Positions 12,824 to 16,907 of a DNA stretch of 34,213 nucleotides are shown here, piece by piece. Numbering within the stretch: the stretch's first letter is position 1; every line of letters begins with the position of its first letter. Both the position numbers and the translations under genes were made by a program. A model generated the notes under the pieces. It saw only the letters and a program-made list of their open reading frames with translations, did not search any database and had not been told where the DNA came from. This stretch comes from an uncultured Planctomycetota bacterium (GTDB taxonomy: Bacteria; Planctomycetota; Phycisphaerae; Sedimentisphaerales; UBA12454), in the NCBI GenBank assembly GCA_903847315.1, contig CAINDG010000006.1, positions 1 to 34,213 on the forward strand, written 5' to 3'.

Positions 12824-13375
12824 TTATGCTTCAGTCACAGTAACATGAATGTGACTGGCCATTTTCCTGATTCTATGCGCCCTGCCTCTGTCCTTGGCTA
12901 TCCATCTCTTGGTGCCGACTCTCAAACCTGCTCCGTCAACACGGGCCTGGCAGATATATAAATTTTCAACATCCGCTGAGTCTTCATCTGCGCTTGCCAC
13001 TGCGCTTTTCAGCGCCTTTTCAATCATATATGCCGCCCGCTTATGAGTAAACTTGAGCAAATCAATCGCTTCCTGTGCGCCTCTGCCCGCTATAAGCTGC
13101 GTAACAAGCCCCGCCTTTCGCGGCGAGGTGGGTGCATACATTACCGATGAACGCCATTCGGATATCTTTGGCACTTCGACGCCGAAAGCGCCTGCCAAAG
13201 TTTCGATATCCGCCGACCTTGGAATCGGGCTGACCAACCCTTTGCGCCAGTTCTTTAATGCCTTCAGCGCCTGTTCTTTGGTCATTCCCGGCCGTACCAT
13301 CTTCTCGGCAAGTTCTATTACGCTTATGCCTATCGTTTTAATAATATTATCAAGCTTTTTTGCGCTTAACATCAT
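12824..13375 (-). CDS. rplV: 50S ribosomal protein L22 with an N-terminal XRE-like helix-turn-helix extension
   Basis: Residues about 75-183 are a complete L22: SSVMYAPTSPRKAGLVTQLI, HKRAAYMIEKALKSAVASA, then GLRVGTKRWIAKDRGRAHRI, RKMASHIHVTV. The long beta hairpin of this family lines the exit tunnel. Residues 1-74 are extra compared with E. coli L22 (110 residues in total). They read like a Cro/XRE fold: LDNIIKTIGISVIELAEKM, ALKALKNWRKG (recognition-helix-like with W-x-x-G), and IETLAGAFGVEV. The frame is continuous from the start, which has AAGGTG upstream of paired ATG codons (13375 and 13372). Whether the domain binds rRNA or DNA, or is structural, is unknown. Confidence 0.93.
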   Translation of the reverse strand: MMLSAKKLDNIIKTIGISVIELAEKMVRPGMTKEQALKALKNWRKGLVSPIPRSADIETLAGAFGVEVPKISEWRSSVMYAPTSPRKAGLVTQLIAGRGAQEAIDLLKFTHKRAAYMIEKALKSAVASADEDSADVENLYICQARVDGAGLRVGTKRWIAKDRGRAHRIRKMASHIHVTVTEA

Positions 13376-13381
13376 TTCACC

Positions 13382-13678
13382 TTATTCCGTAGCCTCAGCA
13401 GCAGCGGCGGCAGCACTCTTAACGCCGGAATGCCCTCTGAACGTACGGGTCATTGAAAATTCGCCCAGTTTGTGTCCGACCATTTCTTCGGAAACAAAAA
13501 CTTTGTTGAATACCTTACCGTTATGTACAAGAAAGGTATATCCAACAAATTCCGGAACAATTGTGCTCCGCCGTGACCATGTTTTTACAGGCTCTTTGCT
13601 GCCCATCTGAACCTGCTTCAAAACTTTCTGTAAAAGTTTCGAGTCAACATACGGTCCTTTTTTAAGCGATCTTCCCAT
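13382..13678 (-). CDS. rpsS: 30S ribosomal protein S19
   Basis: The 98-residue protein starts [20 protein letters not shown] and contains [20 protein letters not shown] and [21 protein letters not shown]19 pairs with S13 in the small-subunit head. The C-terminus ends in an alanine run ([11 protein letters not shown]) beyond the usual family end. It lies 25 bases after rplB and 6 before rplV, in S10-operon order. Confidence 0.98.
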
Positions 13679-16563: not shown

Positions 16564-16907
16564 GCCACTTCTCTAACGAAAAGCCTAATTTACAATTCTT
16601 ACAAAACGCCACTGACTCTGCCAGAGGCGAAAACATAGAAGAATACTCTTAAATATTTTAAAAATCAACGATAATAATACTGAAAATACGTATTTTTTAT
16701 CAAAATATGCACTTTCAGCATATATTTTATATATCATAGAAGACAAATAAAGTCTTTTTATCGTTTTTGCGACTAAACCGCTATTAGCCATTCAATCATC
16801 AGCTGTTTCTTCTGATATGTATCTGCCCAACTCGAAACGCATCCATATAACTTCGGACGCTCGCTGCGGCTAAGGAGAAAGACTTATACCAGATATGAAT
16901 TAACAGG
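16564..16907 (-). other. 344-base AT-rich intergenic region between fusA and rpsJ
   Basis: This is the only gap above 300 bases in the cluster. A short open frame inside it (16585-16791) has no recognisable protein features. The central part (about 16640-16760) is strongly AT-rich. It holds a perfect palindrome AAAATACGTATTTT (16684-16697) and a small hairpin with AAGAC/GTCTT arms. A sigma-70-like promoter pointing at rpsJ is listed separately. No clear intrinsic terminator for fusA was seen. Confidence 0.6.
16640..16668 (-). promoter_or_regulatory. Candidate sigma-70-type promoter for rpsJ
   Basis: On the minus strand a -35 box TTGATT (plus coordinates 16663-16668) and a -10 box TATTCT (16640-16645) are separated by exactly 17 bases of AT-rich spacer. 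The start of transcription would lie near 16633, giving a leader of about 70 bases before the rpsJ ATG at 16563. Three bases match each end of the consensus well, and the location, in the longest gap of the cluster, is where a promoter would be expected. Sequence match only. Confidence 0.5.

Follow-up and report, generated by a model that had tools for sequence, protein, structure and literature searches.

The rplV locus and its reading frame

The window, that is, the whole stretch of 34,213 nucleotides that was analysed, contains a part of the S10 operon with the gene order L2-S19-L22-S3-L16, in which rplV is placed between rpsS and rpsC. The rplV gene (12824..13375, minus strand) is a single continuous frame of 183 amino acids that encodes ribosomal protein L22 with an N-terminal domain of predicted XRE/Cro fold, and it is a single-copy gene with one match per genome in the genomes searched. 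The frame opens with two ATG codons in a row, of which the second (MLS.., 13372) represents the conserved start and is used for the residue numbers of the domain and of the structural alignment. A Shine-Dalgarno-like AAGGTG (13378..13383, minus strand) overlaps the rpsS stop codon and precedes the rplV start.

The extension and L22 proper are read as one protein. In all of 40 related genomes, taken from the genus, family, and order of the window, the alignment begins at residue 1 or 2 and contains no stop codon, and the start codon is placed identically just behind rpsS, as ATG in the order of the window (Sedimentisphaerales) and in another family of the class, here called f12, and as GTG at the equivalent position in most sequences checked from a further family, f8. 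In 22 close pairs, the extension has a dN/dS ratio of 0.05-0.29 and is thus under purifying selection, although in most pairs the L22 core is more constrained and the extension evolves faster. Codons 65-84 lack ATG, GTG, and TTG altogether in 27 of 59 distinct sequences, and a start codon preceded by a purine-rich site is found in this segment in just five of the 59, so that a conserved internal start for L22 is not supported. The alignment from residue 1-2, the conserved start site, the dN/dS ratios, and the lack of a conserved internal start together rule out a mis-annotated start. An earlier note on this DNA had described 74 extra residues in continuous frame at the N-terminus of L22 and had named a start near residue 73 as the finding that would speak against their translation. 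The open frame, the 40 relatives, and the purifying selection bear out the extension, the 59 sequences share no such start near the junction with L22, and only the length needs correction, to about 70 residues, since L22 proper begins at residue 71 in the structural alignment.

Fold of the N-terminal domain

The domain comprises residues 1-70 (13163..13372, minus strand) and is identified by an AlphaFold (AF2) model, by matches in the PDB, and by the HTH_31, HTH_3, and HTH_19 families in its relatives. The model of the domain alone contains five helices, with a mean pLDDT of 85 and a pTM of 0.69. Helices 1 (residues 4-14) and 2 (residues 18-25) are encoded at 13298..13363 and are followed by helix 3 (residues 32-43; 13244..13279), which occupies the position of the recognition helix, a loop (residues 44-52; 13217..13243), helix 4 (residues 53-63; 13184..13216), and the short helix 5 (residues 67-70), all on the minus strand. 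The helices that the earlier note had named from the letters coincide with those predicted at residues 4-14, 18-25, 32-43, 53-63, and 67-70.

A Foldseek search with the model shows that all 50 listed PDB matches have an XRE/CI/Cro-type domain, including CapH, DdrO, SinR, lambda CI, C.Csp231I, and P22 c2, as well as the XRE-like domain of HppE/HEPD. The matches have probabilities of 0.89-1.0 and TM-scores to the query of 0.56-0.72, while the small size of the domain limits the E-values to 0.05-0.35. Consistently, VIA-align of the predicted domain against structures of the XRE fold gives Z-scores of up to 10. At the sequence level, the extension of the window alone has no match in Pfam or NCBIfam, and the domain is revealed by its relatives: HTH_31 is matched by 18 of 28 diverse members and HTH_3 and HTH_19 by 11 of 28 (best E-value 4.2e-6), each member being scanned singly and without the curated cut-offs, and transcriptional regulators in PHROGs are matched in 19-21 members. 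In a profile search against PDB sequences, TniQ was also matched, at 0.001-0.002. The independent profile and structure searches agree, which rules out a chance resemblance of folds.

Five residues, A38, N41, W42, P49, and A60, are invariant in 59 sequences from two separated clades, the first three of them in helix 3 and A60 in helix 4. The loop between helices 3 and 4 contains the conserved motif G45-L46-x-K48-P49-x-P51, with a serine at position 48 in the window. Basic residues occupy positions K6 and K40 in 92% of these sequences and K44/K48 in 73-75%, and R27 is an arginine in 76%. The net charge of the extension is mostly positive, typically +3 to +7, and ranges from -3 to +1 in a few neutral or acidic extensions. 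In the W-x-x-G-x-x-x-P register, N41 falls at a position that we take to be that of the base-contacting Gln33 of the 434 repressor.

The five-helix fold, here as predicted, is common to the extension and to the helix-turn-helix (HTH) domains of the XRE/Cro-CI type (HTH_3, HTH_19, HTH_31; SinR, DdrO, CylR2, lambda CI), and so are the W-x-x-G-x-x-x-P and LA.aLgv signatures. The extension differs from these in being fused to a universal ribosomal protein, with DNA binding and dimerisation only putative, in a turn between helices 2 and 3 that, in our own alignment, exceeds that of the canonical repressor register by several residues, and in a recognition-helix face that is variable except for N41 and K40. 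Structure prediction, fold search, family profiles, and deep conservation all support the proposal, made from the sequence, that L22 is fused to an XRE/Cro-like HTH domain, and by the model the extension is an XRE fold. A helical domain of this fold is likewise found inside the phosphonate enzymes HppE/HEPD/MPnS, which are not transcription factors; their function is unrelated and they are a precedent for reuse of the fold only.

The L22 core and the junction

L22 proper (residues 71-182; 12827..13162, minus strand) is a member of the uL22 family by profile, fold, and locus. PF00237 is matched at residues 79-180 with an E-value of 1.4e-25 (89.9 bits, where the cut-off is 28), and VIA-align of this part against bacterial uL22 gives a Z-score of 19.3 and an rmsd of 1.4 over 109 residues, with residues 71-182 superposed on residues 1-110 of Thermus L22. 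The extra domain joins strand 1 of a normal uL22 without a linker.

Two sites in the core are unusual. The tunnel hairpin contains a three-residue insertion, R151-G153 (12914..12922, minus strand), directly before the equivalent of the MKR residues in the alignment, where it should alter the tunnel constriction. The insertion is present in the order of the window and absent from the other aligned members of the class, including f8 and f12, while one outgroup sequence is similar. The near-universal A-R-[IM]-S before helix 1 of L22 is replaced by A-P-[MST]-S in the order of the window and by [HV]-R-[GS]-S in f8 (L139, L141-L143), whereas f12, which also carries the extension, retains A-R-I-S. 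On comparison of the sequences, the changed residues, AP instead of AR in the order and HRG instead of ARI in f8, would fit a rebuilt junction.

Distribution and history of the fusion

Looking for the extension in other planctomycete L22 proteins, as the earlier note had suggested, did reveal it elsewhere: strong matches to the extension profile were obtained in 61 of 248 genomes of the class, of which 44 belong to the order of the window, 15 to f8, and two to f12, and all 61 fall in frames of the size of rplV. The phylum sample contained no strong match outside these three groups, and a free-standing homolog of the domain was not found at a convincing score in the class genomes, the phylum sample, or a search of 23 genomes. 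A peptide-pattern scan of genome contigs, the sole search that reached into other phyla, gave matches in Planctomycetota only. The domain is absent from the sister families f9, f10, and f11. Two genomes of the order, G389 and G470, have no detectable L22 at all, which in G389 is likely an assembly gap because the S10 leader lies near a contig end.

With a profile built solely on sequences of the order, the f8 and f12 copies score 1e-10 to 5e-18, while the best other place in the 23 genomes scores 0.04. This separation shows that the copies represent one homologous domain rather than independent fusions of XRE domains. A tree based on 14 ribosomal proteins encoded nearby places the order (100/100) apart from f8 and f12, and the unextended f11 beside f12. 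A constrained tree that united all carriers was strongly rejected, in a quick constrained search with too few resamplings, and parsimony explains the distribution by three changes, or by one gain and eight losses. In the weakly supported tree of the L22 cores, those from the order form a clade of their own (97) with f8 and f12 outside. This placement and the absence of the hairpin insertion from f8 and f12 disfavour a transfer of the whole rplV gene from the order to these lineages. Two histories would account for this pattern: a fusion as old as much of the class, followed by repeated losses, or movement of the domain by itself.

A candidate leader RNA of the S10 operon

A conserved structured RNA (16794-16891, minus strand) is located between fusA and rpsJ, where the S10 operon begins. 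Its motif is (C)AGCCGNAGCGAGC-hairpin-GCGUWYCGAGUUGGGCUG, and TGGTATAA, a sequence similar to an extended -10 promoter, lies upstream of it. The pairing is supported by strong covariation: 78 double-change cells were counted, whereas shuffles gave 25 and slid controls no more than 36. No Rfam match was obtained around the S10 operon. We consider the RNA a candidate ribosomal protein leader. It is present in the order of the window and was not detected in f8, in f12, or in the unextended families, and thus does not accompany the domain in all of its carriers. The 5' sequence of the leader, AGCCGUAGCGA, recurs in the 23S rRNA of three genomes of the order (G018, G037, and G033), where the segment AGCCGTAGCGA (L220, L221, and L218) matches the 5' half of the leader. 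This likeness hints that the leader may mimic rRNA, in the manner of ordinary ribosomal protein mimicry.

Possible functions of the domain

As L22 is an essential ribosomal protein and the domain forms its N-terminus, the domain would be made 1:1 with L22 and would be part of the large subunit, so that it can be expected on every ribosome. The globular part of L22 is located at the tunnel exit, and the domain should thus sit near the L22 N-terminus, on the outer surface around the exit, where it would most likely work as a clamp on RNA or on a neighbouring protein. With the HTH face (N41, K40/K44/K48, R27, K6, and the GLxKPxP loop), which in other members of the family binds DNA, it might grip the 23S rRNA and thereby stabilise or reshape the exit side. 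By analogy with the Cro domain of EDF1/Mbf1, we put the chances at about even that the domain stays on the ribosome and grips rRNA in this way. The reading is favoured because EDF1/Mbf1 provides the best precedent: its Cro-type HTH lies between h33 and h16 of the 18S rRNA (PMC7486125), and archaeal MBF1 binds the 30S and 70S particles through its HTH (as cited in PMC7486125). The Cro/C1-type HTH on the ribosome, with rRNA contacts in EDF1/Mbf1 (PMC7486125), is what these proteins would share with the L22 domain. However, EDF1 is a separate collision factor recruited to the small subunit, whereas the domain described here is permanently built into a bacterial large-subunit protein. EDF1 also has an N-terminal MBF1 domain, a zinc ribbon in archaea, while the protein described here begins directly with the HTH and continues as L22; without these N-terminal parts, the fusion is not an MBF1. 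Chloroplast, mitochondrial, and mycoplasma uL22 proteins likewise have lineage-specific extensions near the tunnel exit. Extensions in the chloroplast ribosome mostly adopt an extended conformation (PMC5071890), in contrast to the globular L22 domain with its known DNA-binding fold.

No change that goes along with the domain was found in the 23S rRNAs and exit-site protein lengths compared. We compared 23S rRNAs, fetched by DNA similarity, from 13 extended and nine unextended genomes, and no column or indel tracks the extension. Compensation for a lost 23S rRNA helix is rejected since no indel or single column separates the two groups. The 23S locus of G313 (L227) contains about 310 extra bases at E. 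coli positions 541-570, and that of G014 (L216) about 290 extra bases at E. coli positions 1861-1890, both possible intervening sequences or introns. The lengths of L23, L24, L29, and L4 have overlapping ranges in extended and unextended genomes, with no co-change. The sister families f9, f10, and f11 do without the domain, which must therefore be dispensable in principle.

The earlier note had offered three functions, an extra rRNA contact, the docking of a factor, and autoregulation by free L22, and of these the rRNA contact, unproven as it is, fits best. A docking platform for a factor that acts on the nascent chain, such as deformylase, methionine aminopeptidase, trigger factor, SRP, or a lineage-specific factor, is a tentative and rather doubtful alternative. 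It would make use of the capacity of XRE domains to mediate protein contacts besides DNA binding. L22 has been described as the major docking site of peptide deformylase, with the site in the L22/L32 groove (PMC3130931), and lineage-specific extensions of chloroplast exit-site proteins have been proposed to change factor recruitment (PMC5071890). Against docking, no partner was found. The one candidate that was looked at, deformylase, has C-terminal tails that are alike in extended and unextended genomes among those readable by a simple motif (several were not parsed), with no change that correlates with the extension.

Ribosomal protein operons are commonly autoregulated, and the domain has the fold of a repressor, so that free L22 might repress its own operon by binding of the domain to leader RNA or operator DNA. 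The covarying leader in the order of the window is in line with this. Yet it was not detected in f8 or f12, which both carry the domain, its likeness to 23S rRNA in three genomes suggests an ordinary rRNA-binding ribosomal protein as the regulator, and no conserved palindrome stands out upstream of S10 in the family alignment. As the leader does not track the extension, it argues only weakly for autoregulation by L22, which we regard as possible and at the same time unlikely. We are equally sceptical of the broader idea that L22 would be a ribosome-borne regulator whose Cro-type domain contacts the S10 leader RNA, other mRNAs, or DNA, instead of its own rRNA. We think it very improbable that the domain is a relic or neutral appendage, derived from an XRE gene that was captured and fused to rplV long ago and then kept for the folding of L22 with no role in binding. 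Sister families without the domain, the faster evolution of the extension compared to the core in most pairs, and the rebuilt N-terminal residues of L22 in the order and in f8 would agree with a relic, but the invariant, surface-type N41 and the basic positions conserved across two separated clades exceed what folding needs.

Implications for the ribosome

Few ribosomal proteins are as conserved as uL22, which shapes the exit tunnel. The literature searched contained nothing relevant on an HTH domain fused to L22 or to other ribosomal proteins. The extension of L22 is best called a lineage-specific ribosomal protein extension built from a known HTH fold. It provides a defined and conserved bacterial case in which the fold of transcription factors has become ribosomal hardware, parallels EDF1/Mbf1 on eukaryotic ribosomes, and comes with natural controls in close relatives without the domain. 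The ribosomes of these bacteria probably bear a repurposed nucleic-acid-binding domain on their surface.
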